From Prevotella sp. (GTDB lineage Bacteria > Bacteroidota > Bacteroidia > Bacteroidales > Bacteroidaceae), in the NCBI GenBank assembly GCA_017412705.1, contig JAFPWS010000023.1, forward strand, positions 1 to 64,000: a stretch of 64,000 nt of DNA. The letters are read 5' to 3'. A program made the position numbers and the translations under genes. Positions 20,989 through 38,270 of this stretch are shown piece by piece. How positions within the stretch are numbered: position 1 is the first letter of the stretch; each line of letters begins with the position of its first letter. The notes under the pieces were generated by a model. It made no database searches and had not been told where the DNA came from. It worked only from the letters and a program-made list of their open reading frames with translations.

Positions 20989-22152
20989 ATGAACAGAATA
21001 GCAAGTATGTTCGTCCTCGCCCTGCTGACGGCGACCACCGTCAGGGGCGAGGTCTTGGACACCCTACAGATATGGATGCAGCGGGGCGACAGCTGCATGC
21101 GGCAGTACAATACCTTCGAGGCGCTGAAGCATTACCGGCAGGCCTTCGATGTCGCATCGAGGCAGGGCGTTGTCCGTTTCTCGATGAATGACGATTTCAG
21201 CCATTCACGCTCTTACGTCCCTGAAGACGTAGTGCCAAGAACGGTTCGTCTGAAGCTGGCCGACTGCCACTACAAGCGCGCCAACTATCGCCAGTGTGCC
21301 GAGCTTCTGAAGAACATGCCCGAGGACAGCCTCACGCACGACGCCTTCCGCCAGCTCGTCTATAGTTACAAGCATCAGGGCGATAACGGGGCGTTTATGT
21401 ATTGGGCCGGTCAGCTGTTGAGGCATTATCCGATGGACGGTGAGACGGTGGCAGGGCTTACCCTTGCATACGCCCGGGACAATCAGCCCCAGATAGGCAT
21501 TGTCTGTGCAACAAAATATACGCAGAAGGACTCTACGAATATCCTTGTCAACCGTGCCGCAGCCGAGGCTTGGCTCTTGAATGGGGACTATTCAATGGCT
21601 GCCAAGATTTACAACCGCCTTCTACAGCAGGGCGACTCTGCCTTCAGCACGCTCTATTCCGCCGGCATGTGCTTCACCAAGACCGATTCGCTGGAGCGGG
21701 CCTACCAGTGTCTGAAGCCTGCTTTGGCGCTCAGTGGCATGCAGCACTACGGCGCGGCCTATCGGCTTGGCGTAGTGTGTGTAGACACGAAACGCTACGA
21801 TGAAGGTCTGTTTTACCTCGACCTTGCCACGCAGCTGATGCAGCCCGATACCACTGCCATGCGTGCCATTACCCTCTCGAAGGGCGAAGGCTACTATCTG
21901 ACGGAGCGCTATGCCGAGGCTGTCAGCGCCTGGAAACAGCATCTGACCTACAATCCCGGTTCTGTGGCTACCTATTATAATATAGCCAACGCACTGGCAT
22001 ACCTCGTCAAGGACGACAAGCAGGCTTACGAGTACTACCGAAGGTTCCTGGAGCTGGCCCGTCAGGAGCCCAAGCCCACCCAGCAACTCACCGACATGAT
22101 GCGTCAGGCAGAGCGCATGGTGGCATACTACGAGAAACAGAAAAAGGGTTGA
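20989..22152 (+). CDS. TPR-repeat periplasmic protein
   Basis: The 387-residue protein has a signal peptide (about 1-20, ending VRG) and then at least six tetratricopeptide repeats, for example GDYSMAAKIYNRLLQQGDSA and TERYAEAVSAWKQHLTYNPG. No catalytic motif was seen. It begins 16 bp after the M56 gene and probably belongs to the blaI operon. It is a paralogue of the TPR gene at 25928: both contain a KDST/QDST-xILVNR block followed by a GDY/GNY TPR. A scaffold role for the neighbouring barrel and thioredoxin is an inference. Confidence 0.85.
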   Translation: MNRIASMFVLALLTATTVRGEVLDTLQIWMQRGDSCMRQYNTFEALKHYRQAFDVASRQGVVRFSMNDDFSHSRSYVPEDVVPRTVRLKLADCHYKRANYRQCAELLKNMPEDSLTHDAFRQLVYSYKHQGDNGAFMYWAGQLLRHYPMDGETVAGLTLAYARDNQPQIGIVCATKYTQKDSTNILVNRAAAEAWLLNGDYSMAAKIYNRLLQQGDSAFSTLYSAGMCFTKTDSLERAYQCLKPALALSGMQHYGAAYRLGVVCVDTKRYDEGLFYLDLATQLMQPDTTAMRAITLSKGEGYYLTERYAEAVSAWKQHLTYNPGSVATYYNIANALAYLVKDDKQAYEYYRRFLELARQEPKPTQQLTDMMRQAERMVAYYEKQKKG

Positions 22153-22160
22153 GAGCGGCT

Positions 22161-22238
22161 CTTTCACGTAGCCTGCCGACTGCGACGAGCAACGAAGGCA
22201 CCGCCTAAAACGTTGTGAGGCGCCGGGTGAAAGGTCGG
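22161..22238 (+). other. structured spacer with nested stems
   Basis: CTTTCAC (22161-22167) can pair with GTGAAAG (22227-22233). Inside, GCCT (22203-22206) pairs with AGGC (22218-22221) and GGC (22197-22199) with GCC (22222-22224). CCGAC (22176-22180) and GTCGG (22234-22238) would cross the outer stem like a pseudoknot. It directly follows the TPR gene; it may be its 3' end or an RNA element. Confidence 0.4.
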
Positions 22239-22256
22239 GAGGTGGCATACAAAGTT

Positions 22257-22340
22257 AAATCATCGTCGTGGTTTATTAAATCCACGTCGTGGATTAATAA
22301 ATCTACGTCGTAGATTGATAAATCCAAGGCGTAGATATAG
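22257..22340. repeat. 21-bp palindromic tandem repeat, four copies (family B)
   Basis: The units are 22257-22277, 22278-22298, 22299-22319 and 22320-22340. Unit 2 contains AATCCACGTCGTGGATT and unit 3 AATCTACGTCGTAGATT, both perfect 17-nt odd palindromes. The two differences between them are complementary. The array ends 20 bp before the -7 box of the barrel gene. Confidence 0.85.
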
Positions 22341-22359
22341 GTTTTTCGGATATTCTTAT

Positions 22360-22367
22360 TACTTTTG
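22360..22367 (+). promoter_or_regulatory. -7 box of the barrel gene at 22397
   Basis: TACTTTTG followed by CA, 30 bp before the start and just after the 21-bp palindrome array. Confidence 0.7.
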
Positions 22368-22396
22368 CAATTTAAACGGCTAAAAATGTCATTTGT

Positions 22397-24661
22397 ATGA
22401 ATAAAATATTGTTGCTATTGATGGCTTCCGGCTTGTCACTCAGTGTGCAGGCTCAGACCAAGGCCGACTCGCTGCGTGCCGACAGCATCTATAAATCGCT
22501 GGAACTGCAGGGCGTCGAGGTGGTCAAGCAGAAGTCGCTCGTCAAGGCAGACATCGACAAGATAAGCTACGACATAGAGAACGACCCCGACTCGAAGACC
22601 AACTCCGTCATGGAGATGCTGCGCAAGGTGCCGATGGTGACGGTAGACGGCGAGGACAATATCCAGGTGAACGGCTCGTCGTCGTTCAAGGTGTATGTCA
22701 ACGGCAAGCCTAACAACCTGATGTCGAACAATCCGAAGGAAGTGCTGAAGTCGATGCCTGCCAATTCGATAAAGAAGATAGAGGTCATCACCAACCCGGG
22801 TCCGAAGTACGATGCCGAGGGCGTCGGGGGCATTCTGAACATCGTCACTCACGGCTCAGGGCTGGAGGGCTATACCGTCACGCTGAGCGGCAATGTGAGC
22901 AACCAGGGGGCCGGCGGCGGAGCTTACGGCACGGTCAAGGCCGGCAAGCTGACCGTCAGCGGCAACTACAACCTGAACTACAACGACTCTCCGCGCAGCT
23001 ATTCAGGCGGCAGCCGTAAAACAACAGGAACCATAGGGGCATCGTCGTCAGACCTCAGCAACGATGGCAGTTCGAAGAGTCACGGCACCTTCCAGTACGG
23101 CTCCCTTGAAGCCAGCTACGAGATAGACACCCTGCGGCTGGTCACCGCCTCGTTAGGGCTGTGGGGCGGCGGCAGCAAGAGCAACTCCGACATGCTGACG
23201 CTGGCCACCCATCCTTCCACGCTGGCACAGCTTTACCGCTATCAGACGGCAGGCCGTTCCAAGAGTTCGTGGTACAGCATTGACGGTGGCATTGACTATC
23301 AGCGCTCCTTCCCTGTGAAAGGCCGTCTGCTGACGCTTTCCTATAAGATAGACACCAATCCCAATTCGTCAGACTCCTACACCGACTATCTCGACAAGCA
23401 GTCGGATGCTGCGTGGGACGACTTCATAGACCGCTTGTACGACCAACGCAACGACGGCAGTCAGCGCACCACAGAGCAAACCTTTCAGGCCGACTACACG
23501 ACACCTATTGCCAAACTGCACACCCTGGAGGCCGGCCTGAAATATATCCTGCGTAACAACCGTTCGGAAAACGACCGCTACGAGATGGAGGTGTTCGACC
23601 AAGACCACTCGTCGCACTACAAGCACCGCAACGACATACTGGCAGCCTATCTGGGCTACGGCATCAAGGTGAAAGGATGGTCGGGGCGTGCGGGCCTCCG
23701 CTATGAACACACCCTGCAGGATGTCAACTACGAGCTGGGACGCGGACAGGACTTCCGGAAGCGCTTCAACGACTGGGTGCCGTCGGCAAGCATCGGATGG
23801 AAGCCAACGCAGATGTCGAACCTGCAGCTGAACTACTACATGCGCATCCACAGGCCGGGCATCTGGTACCTGAATCCTTACCTCAACGATGCCAACCCTA
23901 CCAGCATCTCGCAAGGTAACTCACGGCTTGACAACGAGAAAAGCCACTCGTTCGTCCTGTCCTACAGCAACTTCACCCCCAAGCTGAACTTCAACGCATC
24001 GCTGCGCTACGGCATGACCAACAACAGTATCGAGCGGGTGACGCGACTGGTGCGCGACACGGATATACCGGGTCTGCAGAACCCTACGGGCAAGGACGTG
24101 CTATACGCTACGTACGAGAATATAGGTCACAGCAAGTATGTCAACCTCACGGCATACGTCAACTGGAATGCCACCCGCAACACCCGAATCTATGTGAACA
24201 GCCGGCTGACCTATACCGACATGAACGACGGCGGCACGCTGCACAACAACGGCTGGGACCTCTTTGCATACGGTGGCGCACAGCAGACGTTGCCCAAGGA
24301 CTTCCGCATCAGCCTGAACTTCTTTGGCATGACGCCACGCTTCAATCTCCAGGGACGCGGCAGCAGCTACGCCAGCTATACGCTCAGTCTCAGCAAGTCG
24401 TGGCTGAACAAGCGGCTGAACGTCGCCCTGTCGGCCACCAACTTCCTGAAGAAATACCGGATGAGCGAGTCTTCTCTGCAAGATGTCAGTTTCCTGCAAG
24501 ACAGTTGGGCCCGCTATACCCAGCAGCGCTTCTCGCTCAGTGTCAGCTATCGCTTTGGCGAACTGAAAGCCAGTGTGCGCAAGGCCGAGCGCACCATCTC
24601 CAACGATGACTTGAAAGGCGGCAACAGCCGGGGTGGCTCTGGTGAGGATAATAGTAATTAA
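22397..24661 (+). CDS. outer-membrane beta-barrel protein, TonB-dependent-receptor type (OMP_b-brl_3)
   Basis: The 754-residue protein has a signal peptide (about 1-19, ending VQA), then a plug-like domain (about 40-150) with KISYDIEND, LRKVPMVTVDGEDNIQVNG and IKKIEVITNPGPKYDAEGVG. A long barrel with many aromatic beta strands follows. There is no N-terminal carboxypeptidase-like domain and the C-terminus is a polar tail (SNDDLKGG), not an aromatic residue. Such proteins resemble TonB-dependent receptors but their cargo is rarely known. A paralogue is at 52575. It leads an apparent operon with TlpA, TPR and GLPGLI genes. Confidence 0.88.
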   Translation: MNKILLLLMASGLSLSVQAQTKADSLRADSIYKSLELQGVEVVKQKSLVKADIDKISYDIENDPDSKTNSVMEMLRKVPMVTVDGEDNIQVNGSSSFKVYVNGKPNNLMSNNPKEVLKSMPANSIKKIEVITNPGPKYDAEGVGGILNIVTHGSGLEGYTVTLSGNVSNQGAGGGAYGTVKAGKLTVSGNYNLNYNDSPRSYSGGSRKTTGTIGASSSDLSNDGSSKSHGTFQYGSLEASYEIDTLRLVTASLGLWGGGSKSNSDMLTLATHPSTLAQLYRYQTAGRSKSSWYSIDGGIDYQRSFPVKGRLLTLSYKIDTNPNSSDSYTDYLDKQSDAAWDDFIDRLYDQRNDGSQRTTEQTFQADYTTPIAKLHTLEAGLKYILRNNRSENDRYEMEVFDQDHSSHYKHRNDILAAYLGYGIKVKGWSGRAGLRYEHTLQDVNYELGRGQDFRKRFNDWVPSASIGWKPTQMSNLQLNYYMRIHRPGIWYLNPYLNDANPTSISQGNSRLDNEKSHSFVLSYSNFTPKLNFNASLRYGMTNNSIERVTRLVRDTDIPGLQNPTGKDVLYATYENIGHSKYVNLTAYVNWNATRNTRIYVNSRLTYTDMNDGGTLHNNGWDLFAYGGAQQTLPKDFRISLNFFGMTPRFNLQGRGSSYASYTLSLSKSWLNKRLNVALSATNFLKKYRMSESSLQDVSFLQDSWARYTQQRFSLSVSYRFGELKASVRKAERTISNDDLKGGNSRGGSGEDNSN

Positions 24662-24671
24662 TGTATTGTAT

Positions 24672-25928
24672 ATGCGAAAGATTCTTAGTTTGTTCTACAT
24701 GTTCGCCGTGCTGCCTCTTTCGGCACAAACCGACCGCTTCAGCATCACGCTGCAGGTGGATTCTGCCATCGCCAGCGAACCGCAGAAGGTGTATCTCTAT
24801 TCGATGATAGAGCAGCAGATGCAGTTGCACGACTCAATCGGCATTGATTCCGTTCATCGGGTGGGGACGGTGCACGGACAGGTGCCTTACGAGTATGCCG
24901 TCCAGCTGATGTTTGCCCGCCGAGGACCGGGCGTGGTGCCTGTAGTGGTGAAGAATGGCGACAGCATCACCGTCCATGTGGGCGACGAGGACGACGGCTT
25001 TCGTCTGCGCTATCCCCGAAAGACGGAAGGCTCGCCAGCCATGCGTGAATACGTGGATTATCAGTTGATGCAAGACAGCCTTGAGCTGCTGAGCCGTAAA
25101 ATCAGGATGCAGATGCTGTTGGTGGGCATGCCTGAAGCCAAAAAGGACTCGCTTAAAGCCGTCTACGACAGGCTCTACCGCGAAACGGAGCGTCAGAAGG
25201 AGGTCTTTGCCATGAACGCCAAGTATCCTTATGCCGCTATGGGCGCTGCAGGCACCATCTATAGCAACTATAAATGGAGTCCCACCACCCACACTTACAA
25301 GGAGGAGGTCGTGGATTCCATCATGAACGCTATCATCAGGCGATTCCCCGACTATCCGCCCATCCGCGCCCTCGTCAACGACAGTACTCTTGGCAACTAC
25401 ATGTCGGCTGAGAGCTTTTCTGTCCGTAGCATGTATTGGAAGCGCTACAGCAGCCGGTTCTACAACAGTGAGACTGACTCCATTGTCCGTCCGCTGAAGG
25501 TGGGCGACTACTTCAACGCTCTCGGCATGAACCAATATCGCGGGCAGTATCTGTATGTCGACTTCTGGGCTTCGTGGTGCCAGCCCTGCCTGATGCAGAT
25601 TCCCAATATCAAGCAGGCTGCCCAGCTGTTTGCTGACGATCTGGTGGTGTGTCTGGTCAGCATCGACAAGTCGGGCAAGGAGTGGTGGAGTGCCGTGAAG
25701 GAGCACGACCTGCTCAACCATTTGGAGGGTGAACATCCCTACCAGATTCATAATTCTCGTGCCTATAACGACAAAGGGAAGATGAATCCCGATGTCCGTT
25801 CGCTCGGCATCAAGACCATCCCTCACAACTATCTCGTAGACCGCTCAGGGCGCATCGTCGCCAAGAATCTCTCGGGTAGCATGCTCATCGACAAAATGAA
25901 AGAACTAATCGCTAAGGAGAAACAATAA
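24672..25928 (+). CDS. TlpA-like thioredoxin-fold lipid-free exported protein
   Basis: The 418-residue product has a signal peptide (about 1-19, LSAQ), an N-terminal all-beta DUF4369-like region, a helical middle, and a TlpA/AhpC-type thioredoxin domain (about 280-418). The redox motif CQPC is at 303-306 in DFWASWCQPC. It probably reduces or isomerises disulfides, or keeps thiols reduced, in the periplasm. I start at the ATG at 24672, 10 bp after the barrel stop, since an earlier frame opening lacks the signal peptide. Its stop overlaps the next start (TAATG). Confidence 0.87.
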   Translation: MRKILSLFYMFAVLPLSAQTDRFSITLQVDSAIASEPQKVYLYSMIEQQMQLHDSIGIDSVHRVGTVHGQVPYEYAVQLMFARRGPGVVPVVVKNGDSITVHVGDEDDGFRLRYPRKTEGSPAMREYVDYQLMQDSLELLSRKIRMQMLLVGMPEAKKDSLKAVYDRLYRETERQKEVFAMNAKYPYAAMGAAGTIYSNYKWSPTTHTYKEEVVDSIMNAIIRRFPDYPPIRALVNDSTLGNYMSAESFSVRSMYWKRYSSRFYNSETDSIVRPLKVGDYFNALGMNQYRGQYLYVDFWASWCQPCLMQIPNIKQAAQLFADDLVVCLVSIDKSGKEWWSAVKEHDLLNHLEGEHPYQIHNSRAYNDKGKMNPDVRSLGIKTIPHNYLVDRSGRIVAKNLSGSMLIDKMKELIAKEKQ

Positions 25929-26899
25929 TGAGAACAGCCCATTTACTTCTTCATCTTTTTATCTTTTTACCCTTCTTCGCACAATCAGCCGACTCGTTAC
26001 GTCAGGAGGCACAACAGAGCTACGACCGAGGCTACTTTCAGCATAGCATCGGTCTGCTCAGACAGATTGCAGACGACAGTCTGACTATTGATGATATGCG
26101 CTTGCGTTACGACTGCTTCTGCCAGATGGGACAGCTTGACTCTCTCTTCTTGTGGGGCGAACAGGTGGTCAGACAATACCCGCTGGACCGTATCGTACCC
26201 GACTTGACCTACCGTTTGAATAATGCTGACCCTAAGCATGCGAACCCAGGAAAGACCATCGAGATATGCGAACGCTACAAACAGCAGGACTCTACCCATA
26301 TCCTCGTCAATCGTCAGCTGGCTGATGCCTATTACATCGTAGGCAACTACGACCTTGCCCTGCGCGAGTTAGGCCGTCTTGAGTCGCTTGGCGACAGTTG
26401 CTTCAAGGTGCTCTATACCAAAGGCTCCATCTTTATACATACCGCCCGCTATCAGGATGCCTACGACTATCTGAGTCGCGCCACCCTGCTGCGTAACGAT
26501 ACTCATGGATATTGCCTCTTCCTTCTGGGCATTGCTGCCAACAAGATAGGGCTGGGTGCTGAGGGGCTCAGCTATCTGGAGATGGCCAAGGAACGGCTGA
26601 TGCCTAACCGCAAGACGCTGTTCCGTCTGCATCAGGAACTGGCAGAATCCTATCGCATGAAGAACGAACCTGATTTCCGTTTGGAAGAGTTGCAGGAATG
26701 CCTTCGCCTGGCTGACGAGAAAGACGTCAATGAGCTGACCTACCAGATGGGGCAGTGCTATGTCAGCCTGCATCAGATGGACAAGGCCCGCGACTGTTTC
26801 AACCGCTTCTTGGAAGCCACCGAGAACAAGGAATACAACGACAAGATCAAAGACATGCGCGAGTCTGCCCAACGACAACTCCGCATGATGATGTGGTAA
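25928..26899 (+). CDS. TPR-repeat periplasmic protein, paralogue of the gene at 20989
   Basis: The 323-residue protein has a signal peptide (about 1-20, LPFFAQ) and then TPR repeats such as VGNYDLALRELGRLESLGDS and YVSLHQMDKARDCFNRFLEA. Start and previous stop share one base, so translation is coupled to the TlpA-like gene. The block QQDSTHILVNRQLADAYY mirrors the upstream TPR protein, so the region carries a duplicated module. Role unknown. Confidence 0.85.
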   Translation: MRTAHLLLHLFIFLPFFAQSADSLRQEAQQSYDRGYFQHSIGLLRQIADDSLTIDDMRLRYDCFCQMGQLDSLFLWGEQVVRQYPLDRIVPDLTYRLNNADPKHANPGKTIEICERYKQQDSTHILVNRQLADAYYIVGNYDLALRELGRLESLGDSCFKVLYTKGSIFIHTARYQDAYDYLSRATLLRNDTHGYCLFLLGIAANKIGLGAEGLSYLEMAKERLMPNRKTLFRLHQELAESYRMKNEPDFRLEELQECLRLADEKDVNELTYQMGQCYVSLHQMDKARDCFNRFLEATENKEYNDKIKDMRESAQRQLRMMMW

Positions 26900-26923
26900 G
26901 AACAATCATTTAGTGAATATACC

Positions 26924-27805
26924 TTGAGCAAGCAAACTGTCATCATCGCACTGCTCGCCCTCGTCGCTTTAGCGGGGCAGGGGCAGAAGATAAAGAAACA
27001 GACAAGCATCAAGCAGGACTTTACGGTTCTATCGGTGACTTATGATGTCTATTATCAGAAGTTCGAGGAAGAAAAGAAGCTGGATAAAGACCTGATGCGT
27101 CTGGATATTGGTCGGCATTCGTCGCAATTTATTAGCGTAAAGCTGGAATTTGTTTCCAAGCACAAGAACGACATCATTGCAAAGAAAATCAAGAATCCTT
27201 ATGAGGGTTATACAACATTGCGCGATGAAGTGTTTAAGAACACTCCCAAAATCGGATATATGCAATTCGTTCACATGCCAGGCTGGGTTTCCTGTCGTGA
27301 CAAGATAGAGGGTTTATTTGTCTGGCAGCTCCAAAGAGGTGATTCCGTAGTATGCGGGTATCCCTGTCATAAGGCAACTACGACATTTAGAGGCAGGACA
27401 TGGACGGTCTGGTATACACTCGACCTGCCGTATAGCGACGGGCCGTGGAAATTTTGCGGCTTGCCAGGTTTGATACTCCATGCATACGATTCGGAAGGAC
27501 TTTTCCGTTTCAACTGCATTGGTATCGAGAAAGGTGATGGACATGAGATTAAAATGAAGACACCGAATTCCGGCGTCATTGACACATACATGCCTGAACG
27601 TGTTGCAGAAATCATGATGCTGGAACATTGGGATCGTTCCGCTTATTTCTCTCAAACGACAGGAATGTCAGGACAGGTAACAAGGATGTGGGATCCTCAG
27701 GGAAATGAAGTTAAGATAGTTCCCCAGACCCGTATCCTCTATGAGAAGTTCCCCGGGGTGAATGTGAAGAAGAAATATCATCGCCGCACTGACGGGCGGA
27801 GATGA
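26924..27805 (+). CDS. GLPGLI-family exported protein
   Basis: The 293-residue product starts with TTG (26924) and a signal peptide. The family motif is present as KFCGLPGLILHAYDSEG near residue 185. GLPGLI proteins are exported Bacteroidetes proteins, usually beside TonB-dependent receptors or TlpA-type genes; their function is unknown. A truncated gene at 31292 has the same signal-peptide coding sequence with ATG in place of TTG, which supports this start. It ends the run of envelope genes that began at 22397. Confidence 0.85.
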   Translation: MSKQTVIIALLALVALAGQGQKIKKQTSIKQDFTVLSVTYDVYYQKFEEEKKLDKDLMRLDIGRHSSQFISVKLEFVSKHKNDIIAKKIKNPYEGYTTLRDEVFKNTPKIGYMQFVHMPGWVSCRDKIEGLFVWQLQRGDSVVCGYPCHKATTTFRGRTWTVWYTLDLPYSDGPWKFCGLPGLILHAYDSEGLFRFNCIGIEKGDGHEIKMKTPNSGVIDTYMPERVAEIMMLEHWDRSAYFSQTTGMSGQVTRMWDPQGNEVKIVPQTRILYEKFPGVNVKKKYHRRTDGRR

Positions 27806-27818
27806 AAAAAGACATATA

Positions 27819-28340
27819 ATGAATATAGAACTAAAACGGTGGACTATGAGTGACAGCAAGGAACTTGCTGCCTTGTGTAATGCTGTTGACAGGAGTTGTC
27901 TTTCTGACCGTCTGCCTTATCCTTACACGATAAAGGACGCGGAAGATTGGTTGTGTCGTGTGTCTCAGAATGAAGTGGTTTCAGGTATCTACCGAGCTAT
28001 CATCGCAGACGAAAAAGTAGTTGGCAGCATTTCTGTCGAACAGAAAGAAGATGTTTATCGGATTGATGGTGAAATAGGCTTTATGCTTCATGGCGATTAT
28101 TGCAACAAGGGAATCATGACGGAGGCGGTTAGGCAAATGTGTACAATTGCATTCCGCGACTTGCCGATTGAACGGATAACGGCTAACATCTTCCATCCAA
28201 ATACCGCCTCGATGCAGGTCTTACGTAAGAATGGCTTTGTTCACGAGGCTACCTTGCGGAATGCCGTCGTTAAGAACAACGAAATATACAACCTCTGTAT
28301 TTTCGGATTAACCAAAAAATACAATAATATATCGAAATGA
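27819..28340 (+). CDS. GNAT-family N-acetyltransferase (RimJ/RimL type)
   Basis: The 173-residue protein fits the Acetyltransf_3 pattern: N-terminal strand IELKRWTMSD, central IGFMLHGDYCNKGIMTEAV with the acetyl-CoA loop near residues 90-100, and NTASMQVLRKNGFVHEATLRN near the end, as in ribosomal-protein acetyltransferases and the many of unknown substrate. It lies 13 bp after the GLPGLI gene. Its stop overlaps the next start as ATGA. Confidence 0.9.
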   Translation: MNIELKRWTMSDSKELAALCNAVDRSCLSDRLPYPYTIKDAEDWLCRVSQNEVVSGIYRAIIADEKVVGSISVEQKEDVYRIDGEIGFMLHGDYCNKGIMTEAVRQMCTIAFRDLPIERITANIFHPNTASMQVLRKNGFVHEATLRNAVVKNNEIYNLCIFGLTKKYNNISK

Positions 28341-28684
28341 ACAAGAAATCCATCATAACCACGGCTGGTGGACTGCGTGGCGAACCGATGGCTCCCGCAT
28401 ATAGTGCAACGAAAGCCTACCAAATCAATTACATGGAAGCTCTCCGTAAAAAGGCATTCAAGGCAGGCGGAAAAATCATCGTTACTGATGTCCGTCCTGG
28501 TCTTGTCGATACAGCAATGGCAAAGGGCGAAGGTCTCTTTTGGGTGATGCCCGTGGAGAAAGTTGTCCGCCAAATCTGTAACGCCATCCGTCGCAAAAAG
28601 TCGAAAGTCTATGTCACCAAACGATGGCACGTCCTTGCTGTTATCAACAGGAATTTGCCATTCTTCCTATATAGGTTGTTGTAG
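28337..28684 (+). pseudogene. C-terminal fragment of a short-chain dehydrogenase
   Basis: The 115-residue frame begins in the middle of an SDR protein: SIITTAGGLRGEPMAPAYSATKAY holds the Ser-region, Tyr and Lys of the catalytic YxxxK (Y-S-A-T-K). Then come RPGLVDTAMAKG and a normal C-terminus. The NAD(P)-binding Rossmann half (about 120 residues with GxxxGxG) is missing upstream. The remaining frame is open and coupled by ATGA to the GNAT gene, so it may be translated, but it cannot bind cofactor in the usual way. Likely a deletion remnant. Confidence 0.75.
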
Positions 28685-28726
28685 ATTGACGATATTTTTC
28701 TCCATTTTTGAAAAAAGTTACTGTTC

Positions 28727-28771
28727 CCGTGCAGTCTTTTCGTGATTATCGGACATAATAGATAGAGACAT
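28727..28771 (+). promoter_or_regulatory. promoter P1 of the sigma-barrel gene, ECF type
   Basis: CCGTGCAGTCTTTTC (28727-28741), then CGGAC (28750-28754), then AGAGACAT (28764-28771), just before the start codon at 28773. The same three blocks, with nearly the same spacing, precede the next gene (30481-30528). There is no TAnnTTTG box. Confidence 0.65.
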
Positions 28772-28772
28772 T

Positions 28773-30479
28773 ATGTTCACGATGGAGATAACACGACTGA
28801 TAGAACGGTGCAGGCAGGGCGACGCGGATGCGCTCGGAGAACTGTACAAGGCATACGCTCAGAGGATGAAGGGTGTATGCCGACGCTATATCAGAGACGA
28901 ACGGGCGGTGGATGATGTGTTGCATGATGCTTTTGTGATAATCTTCACCTCGTTTGACCGTTTGCGAGATAATCGAAAGGCAGAATCGTGGATGATGTCG
29001 ATTACGCGAAACGTGGCCTCGAAATACAAAGACCATTTGAATAGCCATACATTAGTCCCATTAGAGGAAGCAGAGTCATTAGTGGCTCCCAATGCAGAAG
29101 CCAGTGTGAAAGGTGTTCCCTTAGAAGAGGTGTTGAAGCTGATAGACCGGTTGCCAGAGGGATACGGCAAGGTGTTCCGACTGTCAGTTTTTGAAGGAAT
29201 GTCTCACAAGGAGATTGCAGACATGCTGCGCATCGAGCCACATTCGTCTTCCTCGCAATTGGCGCGGGCCAAGAAGATACTTCGCAAGATGATGCAGCAA
29301 TATTGGGCAGCCGTGCTTCTGTTGTTGCTTATGCCTCTTACATTCTTCTTGCTTAGAAAAGGCGATACTGCTGTCGAAGAGAAGCCTGCCATTGCCAAGC
29401 AGAAAGATGCACCAGAGCAAAAGCCACATACAAATGAGCCATCAACGGAACAGCCGCAGGAATCTGTGATTGTACGTATACCCGTACATCATGCCCCAAT
29501 TGACACGCTCCAGCCTGTCATTGTTCAAGCCCTTGATTCTATTACAGCTGACACCCTGACAAACATGATTGCGCAGGAGCAGACTACTACGGACACCATA
29601 ACGACGGACACAACAAAAACATTACGCAAGGTGGATATGCCGCAATACGATATTACCGACTTGTTCCCCGAAAAGCCATCCGACAGAAGCCGCAACGGGC
29701 AAAGGTGGTCGGTAGAACTCGCATACGCCGGGCAGTTGTCGGAACAGAGCCGCTACAACCAGCCATACACTTACCAACCCGCGCCGTCAGCCACGCAGTC
29801 GCTCCCAGATCCAGGACCCAGCCCAGTCGTACCGAGCAGCATCGACAACTGGACGGATTACGCTGTCTATCTGGCCAACCATCCGGATGCGGTAAGCGAC
29901 AAGACCCGCAGCGTCATCATGCGCATCGCCCTGAACAATGCCAACCAACTAGGCAACGACAAACTCCTGCGTACGAGCCATCACCGCATGCCCATTACGT
30001 GGACTCTGGAACTGAAATATAAACTCGACAACCGCTGGGGCATTGAGACAGGACTTGGCTACAGCCGCCTGACCTCCGACTTCGAGATGGGCGCCGACGG
30101 TAACATTATCCGCGAGCAACAGACCATCCACAATCTCGGCATCCCCGTGAAGGGCATTTACCACATATATAATAAGAAGATGTGGAGCCTCTACGGCAGC
30201 GCGGGTCTGACGATGGAAATCCCCGTGTCGTCAACACTCCGTTCCGACTACTTCATAAATGGCCAGTATGAAAGCACTGACAAGACCACACTCCGCGCTC
30301 CGTGGCAGTGGGCGGTCGGTACTGGTCTCGGTCTACAATACAATCTGACGCCCAACATCGGGCTGTTCGCAGAACCAAGCCTGCAATACTACATCCCGAC
30401 GGGCAGCGGCATCGAGACCTACCGCACGGAGCATCCGTTTATGTTCTCCCTGCCGCTCGGTATCAGATTTACCTGGTAA
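28773..30479 (+). CDS. ECF sigma factor fused through a membrane helix to an outer-membrane barrel
   Basis: One 568-residue frame without interruption. Residues 5-85 are sigma region 2 (ALGELYKAYAQRMKGVC, AVDDVLHDAFVIIF, AESWMMSITRNVASKYK). Residues 115-172 are region 4 (LIDRLPEGYGKVFRLSVFEG, MSHKEIADMLRI, SQLARAKKILRKMM). Residues 178-195 are one membrane helix. Residues 196-310 are a Pro/Gln/Thr-rich linker, long enough to cross the periplasm. Residues 312-568 are amphipathic beta strands ending in Trp (GIRFTW), the usual barrel end. Known relatives are dual membrane-spanning anti-sigma factors (Dma) of Bacteroides, in which sigma is a separate protein. Inference: sigma is held at the inner membrane and freed by proteolysis when the barrel is disturbed. 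An ATG at 28782 is an alternative start. Confidence 0.85.
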   Translation: MFTMEITRLIERCRQGDADALGELYKAYAQRMKGVCRRYIRDERAVDDVLHDAFVIIFTSFDRLRDNRKAESWMMSITRNVASKYKDHLNSHTLVPLEEAESLVAPNAEASVKGVPLEEVLKLIDRLPEGYGKVFRLSVFEGMSHKEIADMLRIEPHSSSSQLARAKKILRKMMQQYWAAVLLLLLMPLTFFLLRKGDTAVEEKPAIAKQKDAPEQKPHTNEPSTEQPQESVIVRIPVHHAPIDTLQPVIVQALDSITADTLTNMIAQEQTTTDTITTDTTKTLRKVDMPQYDITDLFPEKPSDRSRNGQRWSVELAYAGQLSEQSRYNQPYTYQPAPSATQSLPDPGPSPVVPSSIDNWTDYAVYLANHPDAVSDKTRSVIMRIALNNANQLGNDKLLRTSHHRMPITWTLELKYKLDNRWGIETGLGYSRLTSDFEMGADGNIIREQQTIHNLGIPVKGIYHIYNKKMWSLYGSAGLTMEIPVSSTLRSDYFINGQYESTDKTTLRAPWQWAVGTGLGLQYNLTPNIGLFAEPSLQYYIPTGSGIETYRTEHPFMFSLPLGIRFTW

Positions 30480-30480
30480 A

Positions 30481-30528
30481 CCGTGCAGTCTTTTCCATGT
30501 CGGGCGGACTATATAAGTAGAGAGACAT
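30481..30528 (+). promoter_or_regulatory. promoter P2, matching P1, in front of the lipoprotein gene
   Basis: CCGTGCAGTCTTTTC (30481-30495) is identical to P1. CGGAC is at 30505-30509 and AGAGACAT at 30521-30528; spacing differs from P1 by one and two bases. It begins directly after the sigma-barrel stop codon. Confidence 0.65.
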
Positions 30529-30557
30529 ATCACTTATTCACTTAATCGATAAGAATT

Positions 30558-31124
30558 ATGAACAAGAAAATCAGAAACAGTTTCTGGATGATGGCAATAG
30601 CCACAGCCAGCCTTGCAATGTCAATGACGGCTTGCAGCAGTGATGACAACGAGACGGCAAAACCCTTCACGACTGATCCCGTTGAGTCCTCGACACTCTA
30701 CGCTTGTGGCATTAGTCAGGATGGGACAAGAGGTGTCACAGATGCAGCCAATGTGGTGTTTACCGAGGACGACATCCTTTGGTTTGACGTAAACACTCGC
30801 GAACTGAAATTCAAAGACACGGAAGAACCAATCTACAAGAAGTTGGAGCCATTCCACGAGATTGAAATCCGTCTGGGTGATGATGCTCTGTTTGTGGTCA
30901 GCAGTTTCGTCGGACTATGGGACAGCCGTGTCTTTGACAACCTCGTCCTCTGCTACGGAAAGATGGATGGCGAAGTTTCTTTTGATGGCAACTACTATCT
31001 CTACGACTGCTATCCTCTTCAGTTTATCGATACTGATGCAGTAAAGGCTAACCGCGAAAAGAACGCTGCGCAGTGGGAAACCTTCACAAAATATCTGGAA
31101 AGTAAAGGCAAACTTATGAAATAA
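30558..31124 (+). CDS. surface-type lipoprotein, likely target of the sigma-barrel protein
   Basis: The 188-residue protein has a lipoprotein signal ending SMTAC, then S-S-D-D-N-E. An acidic stretch right after the lipid Cys is the known Bacteroidetes surface-export signal, so it probably sits on the outside of the outer membrane. The rest (DDILWFDVNTRELKF, VVSSFVGLWDSRVFDN) matches no family I recognise; several beta strands and a C-terminal helix are likely. Promoter P2 matches the promoter of the sigma gene, which suggests co-regulation. Confidence 0.8.
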   Translation: MNKKIRNSFWMMAIATASLAMSMTACSSDDNETAKPFTTDPVESSTLYACGISQDGTRGVTDAANVVFTEDDILWFDVNTRELKFKDTEEPIYKKLEPFHEIEIRLGDDALFVVSSFVGLWDSRVFDNLVLCYGKMDGEVSFDGNYYLYDCYPLQFIDTDAVKANREKNAAQWETFTKYLESKGKLMK

Positions 31125-31291
31125 GCCAATTACCAAATACTCCATTGGAACACTATAATAACATTTCTGTCCAAAAACTCTCAACCTAAATTGAGACTTT
31201 CACTCTCGGCATCCGATTTTCGGGCTTGCCGAGGGTTTATTTGTGATTTTTTTGTAACTTCGCGGTCAGAATTCATCATAAACGAAGAATA

Positions 31292-31369
31292 ATGAACAAG
31301 CAAACCATCCTCACCGCACTGCTGGCCCTTGCCGCAATGGTATCGAACCGTCAATCGGCAAAAAGGTAG
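31292..31369 (+). pseudogene. remnant of an exported protein gene (signal peptide only)
   Basis: ATG AAC AAG CAA begins a 25-codon frame, MNKQTILTALLALAAMVSN and six more residues, ending at TAG. It matches the signal-peptide DNA of the GLPGLI gene at 26924. Reading in another frame from GGCAAAAAGG continues with GKKVEVELIEIQPRR and more to a stop near 31428, as if the middle of a gene was deleted and its two ends joined. Promoter remnant at 31255-31262. Confidence 0.6.
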
Positions 31370-31454
31370 AAGTAGAACTCATTGAAATTCAGCCAAGACG
31401 AATAATTTTTGTTAATTTTGGCTGAATTTCTATACGGACAAAAGGTATTTTTGC

Positions 31455-31462
31455 TATCTTTG
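31455..31462 (+). promoter_or_regulatory. -7 box of the ATPase gene
   Basis: TATCTTTG followed by CGG, 18 bp before the ATG at 31481; it excludes the longer upstream start. Confidence 0.7.
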
Positions 31463-31480
31463 CGGCAAATAATTATAAAG

Positions 31481-32944
31481 ATGAAGCATCCATCCACAAT
31501 TATCGGTCGTGAAGAAGAATTCGCCACGATACAAAGGCTCTATGATTCAGAGCGTTCCGAATTCCTTGCCATATACGGTCGTCGCCGTGTAGGAAAGTCT
31601 TTCCTGATAGAAGAGGCCTTTGAGAACAAGCTGTCTTTCATGGCAGTCGGCCTTTACCAACGGGTAGATGAAGGCAATGAGGAAAAGATAGAGTCATATC
31701 GCCAGAAACAGCTGGCCCACTTTTACGATAGTCTGATAGAGTATGGATTATCTGCGGAAGGCAACTCTTCTCCGACAAGTTGGATGGAAGCCCTACGATT
31801 GCTTAAGAAACTTCTTAGCAGTAAAAGAACTCGTCGGAAGATAGTGTTTATCGATGAGCTGCCCTGGCTTGCAGGCCCCCAGTCGGCAGAACTCATCGAA
31901 GAACTCGGCCATTTCTGGAATTCATGGGCACGGAAGCGTAAAGACATTCTCCTCATAGTCTGCGGCTCGGCAACCAGTTGGATGATAGACAATGTGCTGC
32001 GCGACTACGGCGGACTATATGGCCGGGTAACGGAGACCATCGGTCTCAAACCCTTTACACTGGCCGAGTCGGAACGCTACTGGGAGAAGCGTGGCTTTCA
32101 CCTGTCCCGTTACGAAGTGGCTCTTACATATATGGTCATTGGCGGCATTCCATTCTATATGGACAGTTTCCGCCCCGACAGGACGATGGCCGACAATATC
32201 AATGCCATCTACTTCAACAAAGACAAAGCCCGTCAGGAGTTCAAGGATGTCTATACTGGTCTGTATTCAGCATCGGATTTATACATTAAAGTTGTCAGGA
32301 AACTGGGGACGATGTTCTACGGAATGACACGCTCAGAACTCCTGGCTGCCGTTGACAAGAAAGGAGGAGGTACCTTCTCGGACGTTCTCGAGAATCTGAT
32401 GGATTCTGGTGTTATCCGCAGTTACTCTCGCTATGGCGGCCCCCGTAAAGAGACTGTCTATCAACTTACAGACTTCTTTAGCCTTTTCTACCTGTGTTTT
32501 GTGGAAGATACTAACTTCACTTCCTGGCGCGCGGTACAGCGGAGCAAGCCCTTTTACACTTGGGCAGGAAACACCTTTGAACTGCTGGTAATAGAACACA
32601 CCTTGCAGCTTGTGGATGCTCTGAGAATCAAGGAATACGCTACTCCTTACTGCTGGTATGGACAGACACCCGATAAGGAAGGTGTGCAAGTAGATCTGCT
32701 GATTCCAGCTACGGCAGAAAGAGCCGACTACATCTGCGAGATGAAGTTCTCTGAAGGGAAATACATCCTCAAAGACTCTGATGCCGAGGATATAACCGAC
32801 CGAATATCAGCCCTCAGGAATTCCAAGGTTCACAAGCCGGCTCACTCCATTTACGTGGTATACGTCACGACTTTCGGGGTCAGCGAGTCCAAGCACCGCT
32901 CGCATATCAATGACATCGTTACGCTTGACGACCTTTTCCGATAA
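31481..32944 (+). CDS. AAA+ ATPase of the archaeal-type/DUF234 family
   Basis: The 487-residue protein has an N-terminal P-loop domain with GRREEEF-like start (IIGREEEF), Walker A GRRRVGKS (33-40) and Walker B KIVFIDELPW. A winged-helix middle (SELLAAVDKKGGGTFSDVL) follows. The C-terminal DUF234 domain has VDLLIP then ICEMKFSEGKY, the Asp and E-x-K of a PD-(D/E)xK nuclease-like fold. Proteins of this family are widespread in Bacteroidetes and Archaea and of unknown function, sometimes discussed as defence or toxin-like. It is a single gene with its own promoter. Confidence 0.87.
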   Translation: MKHPSTIIGREEEFATIQRLYDSERSEFLAIYGRRRVGKSFLIEEAFENKLSFMAVGLYQRVDEGNEEKIESYRQKQLAHFYDSLIEYGLSAEGNSSPTSWMEALRLLKKLLSSKRTRRKIVFIDELPWLAGPQSAELIEELGHFWNSWARKRKDILLIVCGSATSWMIDNVLRDYGGLYGRVTETIGLKPFTLAESERYWEKRGFHLSRYEVALTYMVIGGIPFYMDSFRPDRTMADNINAIYFNKDKARQEFKDVYTGLYSASDLYIKVVRKLGTMFYGMTRSELLAAVDKKGGGTFSDVLENLMDSGVIRSYSRYGGPRKETVYQLTDFFSLFYLCFVEDTNFTSWRAVQRSKPFYTWAGNTFELLVIEHTLQLVDALRIKEYATPYCWYGQTPDKEGVQVDLLIPATAERADYICEMKFSEGKYILKDSDAEDITDRISALRNSKVHKPAHSIYVVYVTTFGVSESKHRSHINDIVTLDDLFR

Positions 32945-32967
32945 TCCAGCTTTAACCCCATAGCGTT

Positions 32968-33723
32968 ATGGCACAGATAGACGAATTCTTCTTTGACACG
33001 AACCGCGTGGAGGGCATCACCGAGGCCGACTATGAGCGGGCGAAGCCTTACCTGGAGGCGGCGCAGGCTTTCGCGCAATCGACCTACCAGAGCATCTACA
33101 TCATTGACTACTTCCGCAAGAACTTCCTCTACGTGTCCGAAAACCCACTCTTTCTCTGCGGCCACGCTGCCGACGAGGTGCGACAGATGGGCTACGGCTT
33201 CTACATCAACAACGTGCCTGCCGACGAACAGCCGATGCTCACTGAACTGAACCGTGCGGGCTTCCGTGCCTTCGACGACGTGCCGCTGGCCGACCGCCGA
33301 CGCTGCGTGATGTCTTACGACTTCCACATCCTCACCTCGGAACGTCCCCTACTCATTAACCACAAGATTACGCCTCTCGTTCTCACGGCTGATGGCCGTG
33401 CCTGGCTCGCCCTCTGTACCGTCTCGCTCTCATCCCACAAGGAGGCCGGGCAGATACGTTTCCGCATCCTGGGACAGAGCGGCTACCGCCAATATTCGCT
33501 CACCGCCCACCGCTGGCAAGCCTGTGAGGGTGTCACGCTCACTCCCGAAGAGAAACAGGTGCTGACCCTCTCGGCGCAGGGCTACACGATGAAGGAGATC
33601 AGCGACCACATCTGCCGCTCGTTCGACACGGTGAAGTTCTACCGCCGCCAACTCTTCGAGAAACTCGACGTCGCCAACATCACCGAGGCCATTGCTTTTG
33701 CCACCAACTACGGTCTTTTGTAA
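32968..33723 (+). CDS. LuxR-type transcriptional regulator with an N-terminal sensor-like domain
   Basis: The 251-residue protein ends in a LuxR HTH (about 188-250: LTPEEKQVLTLSAQGYTMKEIS, split; then VKFYRRQLFEKLDVANITEAIAFA). Residues 1-170 may be a PAS-like sensor (YIIDYFRKNFLYVSEN, FLCGHAADEVRQMGY). It sits 148 bp before a SusC-like barrel gene with two dyads in between, and probably activates it. The ligand is unknown. Similar regulator/barrel pairs are common in Bacteroidetes. Confidence 0.88.
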   Translation: MAQIDEFFFDTNRVEGITEADYERAKPYLEAAQAFAQSTYQSIYIIDYFRKNFLYVSENPLFLCGHAADEVRQMGYGFYINNVPADEQPMLTELNRAGFRAFDDVPLADRRRCVMSYDFHILTSERPLLINHKITPLVLTADGRAWLALCTVSLSSHKEAGQIRFRILGQSGYRQYSLTAHRWQACEGVTLTPEEKQVLTLSAQGYTMKEISDHICRSFDTVKFYRRQLFEKLDVANITEAIAFATNYGLL

Positions 33724-33764
33724 GCCTCACTACCCCGCCATTCCCCCGATTTTAACATCTTTTG

Positions 33765-33819
33765 TTACCCAAATGGGTAATTTTTCATCCCCGCGATGCA
33801 GAATTACCCATTTGGGTAG
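33765..33819. promoter_or_regulatory. paired dyad operators, candidate LuxR-type binding sites
   Basis: TTACCCAAATGGGTAA (33765-33780) and TTACCCATTTGGGTAG (33804-33819) are inverted versions of one another (15 of 16), centres 39 bp apart. The nearer centre lies about 43 bp before the expected start site, downstream of a weak -7 box TTTCTTTG (33842-33849). Confidence 0.65.
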
Positions 33820-33870
33820 TGGATTTATTTGGCGGATTCATTTTCTTTGCAGCAAAAATTCGTAAAGGAT

Positions 33871-36177
33871 ATGAAAAGGTTAGTATTATTTTCAGTGATG
33901 TGCCTCGTGGCGATAGCCTCGACTGCACAAAGCATCAGCGGACGAGTGATTGACGAGCAGTCCCAGCCGATGCCATTTGCCAACGTCGTGCTCGTCAACC
34001 GTTCCGACTCGGCTTTCGTCGCAGGAGCCATGACGAAGGATGACGGCACATTCACCATCGAGACCGACAAGCAAGATGGTATTCTGAAAGTGTCGAGCGT
34101 AGGTTATATAATAAGGTATATCGACACACGGCAGGGCAACGTGGGCGACATCGTGATGAAGCCCGACACGCAGATGTTGGGCGAGGTGGTGGTGAAAGGG
34201 CAGATGCCGACGCATAAAATGACCACCGAAGGTGTGCTGACCACAGTGGAGAACACGCTACTGAGCAAGGCGGGAACAGCCAACGACGTGCTGCAGCAAC
34301 TGCCCGGCGTGCAGAAGAAGGGCGACGGCATAGAGGTGTTTGGCAAGGGTACACCGCTCATCTACATCAACGGGCGGCAGTTACGCGACAAATCCGAACT
34401 GGACAAAATCAGTAGTGAGAGCGTCAAGAGCGTGGAACTCATTACCACCCCCGGAGCGAAGTACGACGCGCAGGTGGAGTCGGTTATCCTCATCAAGACC
34501 CGCCGCCAGCAGGGCGAGGGATGGAGCGGCGACGTGCAGAGCCACTACCGCCAGGGCTACAATCCCGACCTTGACCTCGGGCTGAACCTCAACTACCGCC
34601 ACAATGGTCTCGATGTATTCGGCAGCGTGTGGTACAACGATGACCAAAACCGCCAGCGCAACCTCATCAACCTCGATGTCGTGGCCGACACGCTCTGGCA
34701 CATGACCGAACAATTCAATTCCGACACGCACCACCGCTCGTTCTACGTCTCGGCGGGCGTGAACTACATATTCAATGACCAGCACTCGATGGGCTTCCGC
34801 TACGATACAAAGGCGTGGCTGAAGCCCAAGATGACGGGCAGTTTCATTGCCGACGTGACTGCCGACGGGGCTTTCTACGACCACCTCGACAACAAACTCG
34901 AACAAGAGACGATTTCTAACATGCCGCATACGCTCAACGCTTATTATAACGGACGAGTGGGCAAGACATCGATTGACTTCAACACAGATTACATTTTCCA
35001 CAAAGACCGCACGTCGCAATTCACTAACGAAGTGAGTCAGGAGCACACGAGTCGCACTGTGACCAGCACCAATGTCGTCCGCAACCAACTCTGGGCATCG
35101 AAACTCGTGCTGTCGTGGCCGCTTTGGAAAGGCAACCTACAGGTGGGTACCGAATACGACATCACCAACCGCAACGACGACTATGTGAACCCCGAGCAGG
35201 TAGTGCCCACGTCGCAAACGGAACAGCGCGAGAGGAACTACATCTTCTTCGCCGAGTACAGTCGCTCGCTGCCCTTCGGTCAGATGCGCGTGGGACTTCG
35301 CAACGAGAACGTCAGCACAGACTACTATCTCCGTGGTATTCATCAGCCCGAGCAGAGCCGCTCGTATCACCATTTCTTCCCTACCGTGGCACTGATGGCC
35401 AAGGCGGGCAAAGTGCAGTTGATGGCCAACTATGCCATGAAGATTCAGCGACCCTATTATTGGATGCTGAGCAGCAATGTGGCCTACGCCAACAGTTTTA
35501 CTTGGGAAAGTGGCAACCCGATGCTGCAGCCCACCATACGCAACGAGGTGGGGCTGATGGCGATGTACAAGTGGATGCGCTTGGCCGTCGATTACAAGCA
35601 TACCACCGACGAGATTGTAAATGTGGCTGAGACCGTAGTGGGCAATGAGGCCACCACCATCATCACTCGCGCCAACGTCTATCGCTCCGACGGCCTCCGT
35701 GCCATGCTCACCCTCTCGCCCCGTTTTGGCCTCTATCATCCGTCGCTCACCATCGGTGTGATAAAGGACTGGATCAAGATTCCGTCACCAGAAGGCAATC
35801 TCAGCCCGAAGAACCCTATCGGCCTCATCCAGTCGAACAACGACTTCCAACTGTCGCCAACCCTCACCGCTTCGGCCAGCCTGCAAGTGACGACCACGGG
35901 CGACCAGCAGAATATGACCGTTACAAAGCCCGGATACGTGGCCGACGTGAGTGTCACAAAGACGTTCTTCGACAACCGCCTGTCGGTGAGGCTCGGTGGT
36001 CGCAACCTGTTCAACTCGCAGCAGCACATCAACATCCGCTACGGCCTTCGCTCTCTCTATCAGGAAACCCACAAAGACTCCCGCAAGTTTGAGTTATCCG
36101 TCCGCTACAACTTCAACGCCACCAACTCGAAGTACAAAGGCACGGGTGCCGGAAACGACGAGAAAAACCGCTTCTGA
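33871..36177 (+). CDS. TonB-dependent outer-membrane barrel protein with CarboxypepD_reg domain
   Basis: The 768-residue protein has a signal peptide (about 1-20, ASTAQ), a carboxypeptidase-regulatory-like domain (about 21-100, ISGRVIDEQSQPMPFANVVL), and a plug (about 105-210, LLSKAGTANDVLQQLPGVQKK, split; VKSVELITTPGAKYDAQVES). The barrel ends near residue 760 with FELSVRYNFNATNSKYKG. It looks like a SusC-like or OMP_b-brl_3 transporter. No SusD-type lipoprotein follows, so a peptide, metal or signalling role is as likely as glycan uptake. I use the ATG at 33871, not the upstream TTG at 33829, as the signal peptide begins there. Confidence 0.9.
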   Translation: MKRLVLFSVMCLVAIASTAQSISGRVIDEQSQPMPFANVVLVNRSDSAFVAGAMTKDDGTFTIETDKQDGILKVSSVGYIIRYIDTRQGNVGDIVMKPDTQMLGEVVVKGQMPTHKMTTEGVLTTVENTLLSKAGTANDVLQQLPGVQKKGDGIEVFGKGTPLIYINGRQLRDKSELDKISSESVKSVELITTPGAKYDAQVESVILIKTRRQQGEGWSGDVQSHYRQGYNPDLDLGLNLNYRHNGLDVFGSVWYNDDQNRQRNLINLDVVADTLWHMTEQFNSDTHHRSFYVSAGVNYIFNDQHSMGFRYDTKAWLKPKMTGSFIADVTADGAFYDHLDNKLEQETISNMPHTLNAYYNGRVGKTSIDFNTDYIFHKDRTSQFTNEVSQEHTSRTVTSTNVVRNQLWASKLVLSWPLWKGNLQVGTEYDITNRNDDYVNPEQVVPTSQTEQRERNYIFFAEYSRSLPFGQMRVGLRNENVSTDYYLRGIHQPEQSRSYHHFFPTVALMAKAGKVQLMANYAMKIQRPYYWMLSSNVAYANSFTWESGNPMLQPTIRNEVGLMAMYKWMRLAVDYKHTTDEIVNVAETVVGNEATTIITRANVYRSDGLRAMLTLSPRFGLYHPSLTIGVIKDWIKIPSPEGNLSPKNPIGLIQSNNDFQLSPTLTASASLQVTTTGDQQNMTVTKPGYVADVSVTKTFFDNRLSVRLGGRNLFNSQQHINIRYGLRSLYQETHKDSRKFELSVRYNFNATNSKYKGTGAGNDEKNRF

Positions 36178-36178
36178 T

Positions 36179-36529
36179 ATGAAACCTATTCGTCATTACA
36201 TAAATCTCTCTTGGGCCGTGGTGGGCATTTGTGAAAATGCTCGCCAGCCCCTCTTGTTTCATATCCCAGGCATTGACAAGGATAAGGCCGCAGCCGTAGA
36301 GCATTACGTCATCGGCTACATGGCCTTCTGGCACATCGCCTTTGTGGATGAGGACTGCCTCGTGCCCTGCAACGACGATGCCCTGCGCAACGATGCCCGC
36401 CGCAAGATAGACCGCTACATCGCCGACCATCCACCCGTAGAGACCTTCCCCCGCTTCTATCTCGTCCTGCTTCGCCAACCCATCGCCCCGATGGAATCCG
36501 ACGGCATGAGCCGGGTGTATCAGTTGTAG
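36179..36529 (+). CDS. small hypothetical protein
   Basis: The 116-residue protein starts one base after the stop of the barrel gene, so it is probably translated with it. No signal peptide or membrane helix. Features: VVGICENARQPLLFHIPG, then AVEHYVIGYMAFWHIAF and a basic/acidic helix DDALRNDARRKIDRYIADH. I do not recognise the family. The match to the gene frame upstream suggests it belongs to the LuxR/barrel locus. Confidence 0.6.
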   Translation: MKPIRHYINLSWAVVGICENARQPLLFHIPGIDKDKAAAVEHYVIGYMAFWHIAFVDEDCLVPCNDDALRNDARRKIDRYIADHPPVETFPRFYLVLLRQPIAPMESDGMSRVYQL

Positions 36530-36546
36530 CAACCCCGCAATAAGGC

Positions 36547-36607
36547 AAATGTCAGACAAATGTCAGGAAGAAAATTCGTTTGTCAGGGACAAATGACAAT
36601 ATCTTTG
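36547..36607 (+). promoter_or_regulatory. promoter with AAATGTCAGAC direct repeats (site 1)
   Basis: AAATGTCAGACAAATGTCAG at 36547-36566 starts 53 bp before the -7 box TATCTTTG (36600-36607). A dyad TTTGTCAGGGACAAA (36579-36593) lies between. The same 20 bases occur before the GT117 gene at 47232, starting 52 bp before its -7 box. Confidence 0.75.
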
Positions 36608-36633
36608 CAGTCGAATTGATTAAAATTGAAGAA

Positions 36634-37203
36634 ATGAGAAAGGCTGTCTTCATTTTTATTACCTTCATCCTCGTAGCGGTGAGCATCGACTGGATTCATT
36701 CTTGTGCCGAGTTGAAGTCACACAAGGAGGTATTCGGTCGTTACCTCACCTACGCCGACATGTATGAATACAGAGACAAGGACTATGACTACGTTGTTCG
36801 CGTGCCGTCGTTCTTCAACGCCCAACCCGATTCGCTACAGGAGGAGAAAGGCCGCATGCGCTTCGACTATGCCGACCAGTGGATAACGCTGGTCATCGAA
36901 AGCCATGTAATGAACTCGGACGGCATGTCGCTTCAGGCGGGCATGGACTCGCTGGCACAAGTCCTTCATGCCACCGACAGCAAGAAGGACAAGGATTATT
37001 GCATCCTCTCTGGTCCACAATATGAGCAGGGCAGTCACATCGACGGCTACAGTTATTACACTAAGATTATGGTCAATCACCAACTCTGGTTTGTCTATAC
37101 GATAATCTATCCCGATGACTATAAAGATGTCCTCGCCCGTCTTTTCAAGGAAGTAGACGACTGGCAAATCTGGGAACGTCCGCAGCTGAAATTGAAACAA
37201 TAA
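36634..37203 (+). CDS. hypothetical exported or membrane-anchored protein
   Basis: The 189-residue protein has an N-terminal hydrophobic segment (about 3-22, FIFITFILVAVSIDWIHSC) that may be a signal anchor. The body is mixed alpha/beta: VVRVPSFFNAQPDSL, DQWITLVIESHVMN, GYSYYTKIMVNHQLWFVYTI, then VLARLFKEVDDWQI. The pattern resembles small periplasmic proteins with a PsbP-like or Mog1-like fold, but I cannot assign one. I use ATG 36634 because the -7 box is at 36600-36607. Its promoter element is shared with the GT117 gene. Confidence 0.65.
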   Translation: MRKAVFIFITFILVAVSIDWIHSCAELKSHKEVFGRYLTYADMYEYRDKDYDYVVRVPSFFNAQPDSLQEEKGRMRFDYADQWITLVIESHVMNSDGMSLQAGMDSLAQVLHATDSKKDKDYCILSGPQYEQGSHIDGYSYYTKIMVNHQLWFVYTIIYPDDYKDVLARLFKEVDDWQIWERPQLKLKQ

Positions 37204-37238
37204 TTGGCCTTTTTTGCGTTTCTTTCGGAAATAATGAT

Positions 37239-37246
37239 TATCTTTG
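37239..37246 (+). promoter_or_regulatory. -7 box of the gene at 37267
   Basis: TATCTTTG followed by CACA, 20 bp before the ATG. Confidence 0.7.
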
Positions 37247-37266
37247 CACAGAGAATGCTGATAGGT

Positions 37267-38082: not shown

Positions 38083-38192
38083 CTTCGCCTAAAATCTTTT
38101 TGTAGGCGATTGGCCTGTATGGGAGGAACGTTAAAGGTTTTATAACCAAAAATAGTTTAAGAAAGACTTATTTTATAAATATGTAAGATTTT

Positions 38193-38233: not shown

Positions 38234-38270
38234 CTTTGCCTCCGAAATCCAAATACTATACAGAAATTAT

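Follow-up and report, generated by a model that had tools for sequence, protein, structure and literature searches.

Sigma factors that sense the state of the cell envelope are usually silenced by anti-sigma factors. The locus described here makes one ask if a tether in the membrane would suffice to keep a sigma factor silent, since it encodes a member of a conserved protein family in which the sigma factor stands where the anti-sigma domain was. The gene lies in a stretch of 64,000 nucleotides from a Prevotella sp. assembly (in the following the window). Our main reading, to which we assign a probability of about 0.5, is that its product is a Dma3-type tethered trans-envelope sigma factor lacking any anti-sigma domain, and that this factor would be freed by intramembrane proteolysis and would then drive its own gene together with an adjacent effector.

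The fused gene (28773..30479, forward strand) encodes 568 amino acids, with Met4 at 28782 as the probable true start. Along this one chain Pfam and AlphaFold give the order ECF sigma regions 2 and 4, one inner-membrane helix, disordered linker and OmpA-like barrel. Sigma regions 2 (residues 24-85) and 4 (residues 118-169) are found by Pfam and by structure matches, whose list includes the ECF holoenzyme 6JBQ (28842..29279, forward strand). In the AlphaFold model a continuous helix (residues 156-195; 29238..29357, forward strand) leads from the end of sigma region 4.2 into the inner-membrane helix at about residues 178-195. The linker is of periplasm length (residues ~198-308; 29364..29696, forward strand) with pLDDT values mostly below 50, and the barrel (residues ~309-568; 29697..30476, forward strand) is supported by Pfam, AlphaFold and structure matches. 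According to models and hydropathy the chain thus has a membrane helix followed by a disordered tether and ends in a barrel. A preceding sequence-only reading had claimed an uninterrupted frame from sigma factor to barrel and, with it, a single chain from the outer membrane to the sigma factor. The frame is confirmed, 120 non-redundant fused homologues having been collected, and the single chain is supported by the domain matches and by the AlphaFold model of the full protein, in which the barrel is present. Other sigma factor matches in the same genome lie elsewhere (the nearest at 46543-47061) and none of them adjoins the fused gene. The sigma part of the fusions shows low dN/dS values (0.07-0.11), and this comparison supports purifying selection on the sigma domain.

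That the sigma factor occupies the place of an anti-sigma domain, as also proposed from the sequence alone, is supported by its direct contact with the membrane helix: in all 120 non-redundant fusions the gap between the end of the sigma profile and the helix amounts to -3 to +5 amino acids, and in two models (the window protein and a representative of the short class) the end of the sigma domain and the membrane helix form one continuous helix. The absence of a visible anti-sigma domain is borne out for the Dma type. A hidden Markov model built from the pre-helix region of 39 split Dma proteins recovers 39/39 of these (its training set) and matches 0/120 fusions, nor does it match any open reading frame of at least 30 amino acids in the fused loci (in the window, positions 20001-40000 were scanned). 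This search gave no hidden Dma-type anti-sigma domain, be it within the fused protein or encoded by a small neighbouring gene. When the C-terminal extension was searched for an anti-sigma domain with Pfam and the Dma-type model, neither a Pfam match nor a Dma-type domain was found.

How could such a protein be regulated? Region 4 would be fixed at the membrane, being continuous with the membrane helix, and the sigma factor would be silent because of this position. A change in the barrel, be it due to a surface ligand or to failed barrel assembly, would expose the linker to proteases, an RseP-like protease would cut inside the membrane, and a fragment of ~20 kDa would be set free that could act on its own promoter and on that of the neighbour, here a lipoprotein gene. 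The suggestion of the sequence-only reading, that the tether would keep the sigma factor silent and a cut near residues 172-200 would activate it, is plausible. The membrane helix itself carries a proline in its core in 102/120 fusions (34/46 non-redundant ones, so that it is missing in 12/46) compared with 4/39 split Dma helices inspected in equal windows. This residue fits a helix that may be cleavable in the membrane, but since the fusions constitute one clade it may also be merely inherited within that clade. The genome encodes one M50 site-2-type protease; M50 proteases are common and likewise present in 14/14 control genomes. An unlikely alternative is that the sigma factor is active while still tethered, with barrel and linker shifting its position or association so that the uncleaved protein would recruit RNA polymerase to the membrane. 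The ~13-21 residues that separate the S.QL motif of region 4 from the membrane helix (116/120 fusions having the motif) might leave room for DNA, but the rigid helix of the models would allow little freedom, and for the known precedents, ECF sigma factors extended at the C-terminus by a membrane part, proteolytic activation is described (PMC8999054).

Returning to release by cleavage, the next question is what the barrel responds to. According to the AlphaFold model a helical insertion is found inside the barrel (residues 332-398; 29766..29966, forward strand), which is read as a loop that would lie at the cell surface. It is conserved in the long class of fusions and missing from the short-class model. 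The two halves of the fused protein may not always have travelled together. L071 shares 82% identity with the window protein in the sigma domain and 39% in the barrel, whereas L032 shares 43% and 60%, respectively, and such opposite kinship of the halves separates L071, L072, L029, L031, L036 and L073 from L032 and L034. It suggests that halves were exchanged within the family by recombination in the linker. The chain terminates with tryptophan, a typical barrel ending. This residue would also suit a barrel that is not a ligand receptor but a sensor of its own assembly, whereby, upon failed outer-membrane insertion, the unfolded barrel or the bare linker would mark freshly synthesised chains for proteolysis and the sigma factor would be released. 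Related split pairs indeed answer envelope stress, and in P. vulgatus the sigma gene is up 33-fold with the toxin BcpT (PMC9308784). Nevertheless, we consider a pure assembly sensor improbable, about on a par with a sigma factor active in its tether, because the conserved insertion of the long class and the exchange of barrels between relatives with similar sigma domains look more like varied recognition of input.

The output side of the proposed tethered sigma factor is indicated by promoter-like elements of the form TGCAGTCTTTT, ~11 nt, GGAC or TATC and then A/T-rich sequence. By motif search one element was located 5' of the fused gene (TGCAGTCTTTT at 28730-28740, GGAC at 28751-28754, forward strand) and a second one past its 3' end, ahead of the lipoprotein gene (TGCAGTCTTTT at 30484-30494, GGAC at 30506-30509, forward strand). 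With one mismatch allowed the window contains 2 copies versus 1.31 expected, and 42/100 shuffles reach 2; the number of the two 11-mer copies is not unusual, their placement is telling. An upstream TGCAGTCTTTT with at most one mismatch is present in 102/116 fused loci versus 0/116 shuffled ones, at a median of 44 nt before the start of the fused gene. The second copy, searched up to 450 nt past the fused gene on the same strand, occurs before the next gene in 89/118 loci versus 1/118 shuffled ones. Among exact 10-mers anywhere in those fused loci, one lies on the opposite strand. In 23 non-redundant loci having both copies the -10 regions are more alike within a locus than between loci (0.643 versus 0.504; 0/2000 permutations). 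The exact 11-mer has only 2 sites in the own genome (assembly 86% complete), namely those at 28730 and 30484, with 0 for the reversed control; a looser pattern gives 3 sites, one of them elsewhere, compared with 2 for its reversed control. Summed over 24 genomes there are 123 exact 11-mers versus 33 for the reversed pattern, and since other genomes have 1 to 11 exact sites each, regulons may be larger there. In the loci L094-L096 no copy lies directly upstream of the fused gene, but an exact TGCAGTCTTT is found about 1.8-2.8 kb away on that side; the copies of L094 (3' half), L095 and L096 adjoin two conserved upstream genes on the same strand. Judged from these patterns, the sigma factor of the fusion probably recognises promoters of the type TGCAGTCTTTT-~11 nt-GGAC/TATC, and as such putative promoters are found before its own gene and mostly before the next gene, it would drive itself and an adjacent effector.

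In the window the proposed target is the lipoprotein gene mentioned above (188 amino acids, 30558..31124, forward strand), whose product has a lipobox-like cysteine recognised by eye and no Pfam or NCBIfam match. Among the same-strand downstream genes of 120 fused loci we counted radical SAM proteins (60), the lipoprotein family (54, window included), Gfo/Idh oxidoreductases (33) and SAM methyltransferases (20), all of which are lower bounds because many flanks are short. In a genus that we judge to be Bacteroides-like (g3) a methyltransferase is next to the fused gene in 7/10 fused loci. Beyond the lipoprotein gene the window contains a gene for an AAA ATPase of the ATPase_2 type (PF01637; 31409-32944, forward strand). 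On the other side, at 28337-28684 (forward strand), a frame of 115 amino acids falls into one cluster with the 243-aa gene that occupies this position in L099 and looks, by eye, like a shortened gene of the dehydrogenase type.

The same promoter-like elements bear on a third possibility, namely that the protein is held in check by a trans-acting anti-sigma factor of a different kind, or that control is exerted by synthesis alone, for example by sigma factors of split pairs reading the same promoter. The exact 11-mer is found upstream of the split loci L170 and L171, other split loci having one or two mismatches, and because this element, or one resembling it, also occurs at some split Das-type genes, another sigma factor might use these promoters. 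Moreover, in dma1 and dma2 mutants of Bacteroides thetaiotaomicron the dma3 locus is upregulated (PMC13088901), a rise which elements shared with split pairs may explain. In contrast, in genus g3 most of the split Das-type genes have TGCAGTATTTT or close variants combined with a different -10 region, and the search of the nearby genes for Dma-type domains, the only kind sought, gave none. Altogether, this possibility is clearly more remote than the two previous ones, and a membrane-tethered sigma factor released by cleavage is retained as the preferred reading.

The fusion is conserved in related genomes, where its architecture was searched. At least 51/200 genomes of the genus have a single match through sigma domain and barrel among the matches listed (six candidates scored per genome), 2 of the 51 with one internal stop. 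The named collection comprises 40 relatives, mostly Prevotella-type MAGs from the ruminant gut, and the loci read contain 137 fused ORFs, of which 120 are non-redundant. In genus g3 fusions are patchy: 9/69 genomes (each at least 98% complete) have a match to such a fusion at 1e-40, and in 2 of the 9 (G201 and G272) the fused gene is in pieces. A phylum sample of 395 genomes, in which three candidates were scored per genome, contains 15 with a match at 1e-45, and outside the order no match spanning both halves is among the matches listed. Open frames of 592-649 residues, which had been considered as a second fused class, were dropped as the loci read turned out to be split pairs with an in-frame stop in between.

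In the sigma tree of 66 domains the 46 fused ones are on one side of a branch with support 100/100. The sigma domain of the window protein groups beside the sigma factors of Dma-type pairs, which supports the kinship to the Dma system that had been assumed. The tree of 66 domains left out L134, whose fused gene is broken, and the long-branch rows L004, L005, L006, L008, L016_S, L051 and L097_S; an earlier one with L134 labelled as split counted two changes. In the barrel tree (78 barrels, quick search) the 51 fused ones are on one side with an SH-aLRT value of 98, L188 and L194 having been retaken from HMM hits and L151 omitted, and an earlier version with these three very long rows (L194, L151, L188) gave three changes. 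As sigma halves and barrel halves each form one clade, the fusion most likely arose once, and repeated independent fusions are not supported. For comparison a split Das/Dma-type pair on another contig of the same genome was used (L002:368-2022, corresponding to C34:89386-91040, minus strand), in which a 180-aa sigma gene overlaps a 371-aa Dma-like gene by 4 nt. In the relatives L111, L132, L134 and L185 the fused gene occupies two frames, its halves being separated by a stop or frameshift. Although these could hint at an accident, i.e. an assembly error, a hidden stop or a chance read-through of two genes that is functionless as a fusion, the 120 non-redundant intact fusions from independent assemblies, the single clade of each half and the low dN/dS make it negligible, and no hidden stop or frameshift near residue 200, a caveat of the sequence-only reading, is needed since the relatives are fused too.

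Taken together, we tentatively propose, with somewhat less assurance than the main reading, a one-polypeptide circuit without an anti-sigma factor. Its membrane anchor would continue on the cytoplasmic side as the promoter-recognition helix, so that the sigma factor would be off by geometry and on by one cut, would serve chiefly two promoters in this genome (its own and that of the neighbour), and would have its barrel swapped by linker recombination across the family. With the paired promoter-like elements as a ready reporter system, silencing by the tether alone is open to direct study in tractable gut Bacteroides.

Proteins of this kind are already described. The sequence-only reading knew of no functional description of such a fusion; this holds insofar as the function of Dma3 is almost blank in print, while the fusion itself was already briefly published (PMC13088901). 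In Dma3 from Bacteroides thetaiotaomicron (bt_2778-2779) the sigma factor is the N-terminal domain of a dual membrane-spanning chain without an adjacent cognate sigma factor, as in the window protein, which on this description belongs to the same kind (PMC13088901). In the parts of the literature covered by our search Dma3 is described as a fusion in this paper only. It reports that removal of dma3 leaves the vesicle profile of dma1 and dma2 mutants unreverted and that very little else is known (PMC13088901). In a comparison concerning iron, BT2778 is listed among sigma-70 family factors, its value being 2.3-fold (PMC10434189). The present comparison adds the finding of no Dma-type anti-sigma domain, one clade per half, paired promoter-like elements and conserved downstream genes, and it offers a concrete guess for Dma3, which may switch on itself and the adjoining gene.

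The pairs Dma1/Das1, Dma2/Das2 and EcfO/Reo resemble the fusions in membrane helix, long disordered tether and barrel but differ by a separate sigma protein and an N-terminal anti-sigma domain (PMC13088901; PMC9308784; PMC13114119). The window protein has neither this N-terminal domain nor an adjacent separate sigma gene. Sigma domains of Dma/Das- and EcfO/Reo-type pairs are related to those of the fusions and some pairs share a similar promoter-like element. IutY from Pseudomonas putida (ECF243) and ECF48/52/53 are like the fusions in having a sigma factor with a C-terminal membrane-bound extension; these extensions, however, act as anti-sigma factors, the passages available name no barrel in the chain, and IutY, unlike the fusions presented here, belongs to a cell-surface signalling system (PMC8999054). 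By analogy, IutY is nevertheless the closest worked-out parallel to the window protein, being a sigma factor fused to a membrane-bound anti-sigma factor, with cleavage by Prc and RseP as the activating step (PMC8999054).
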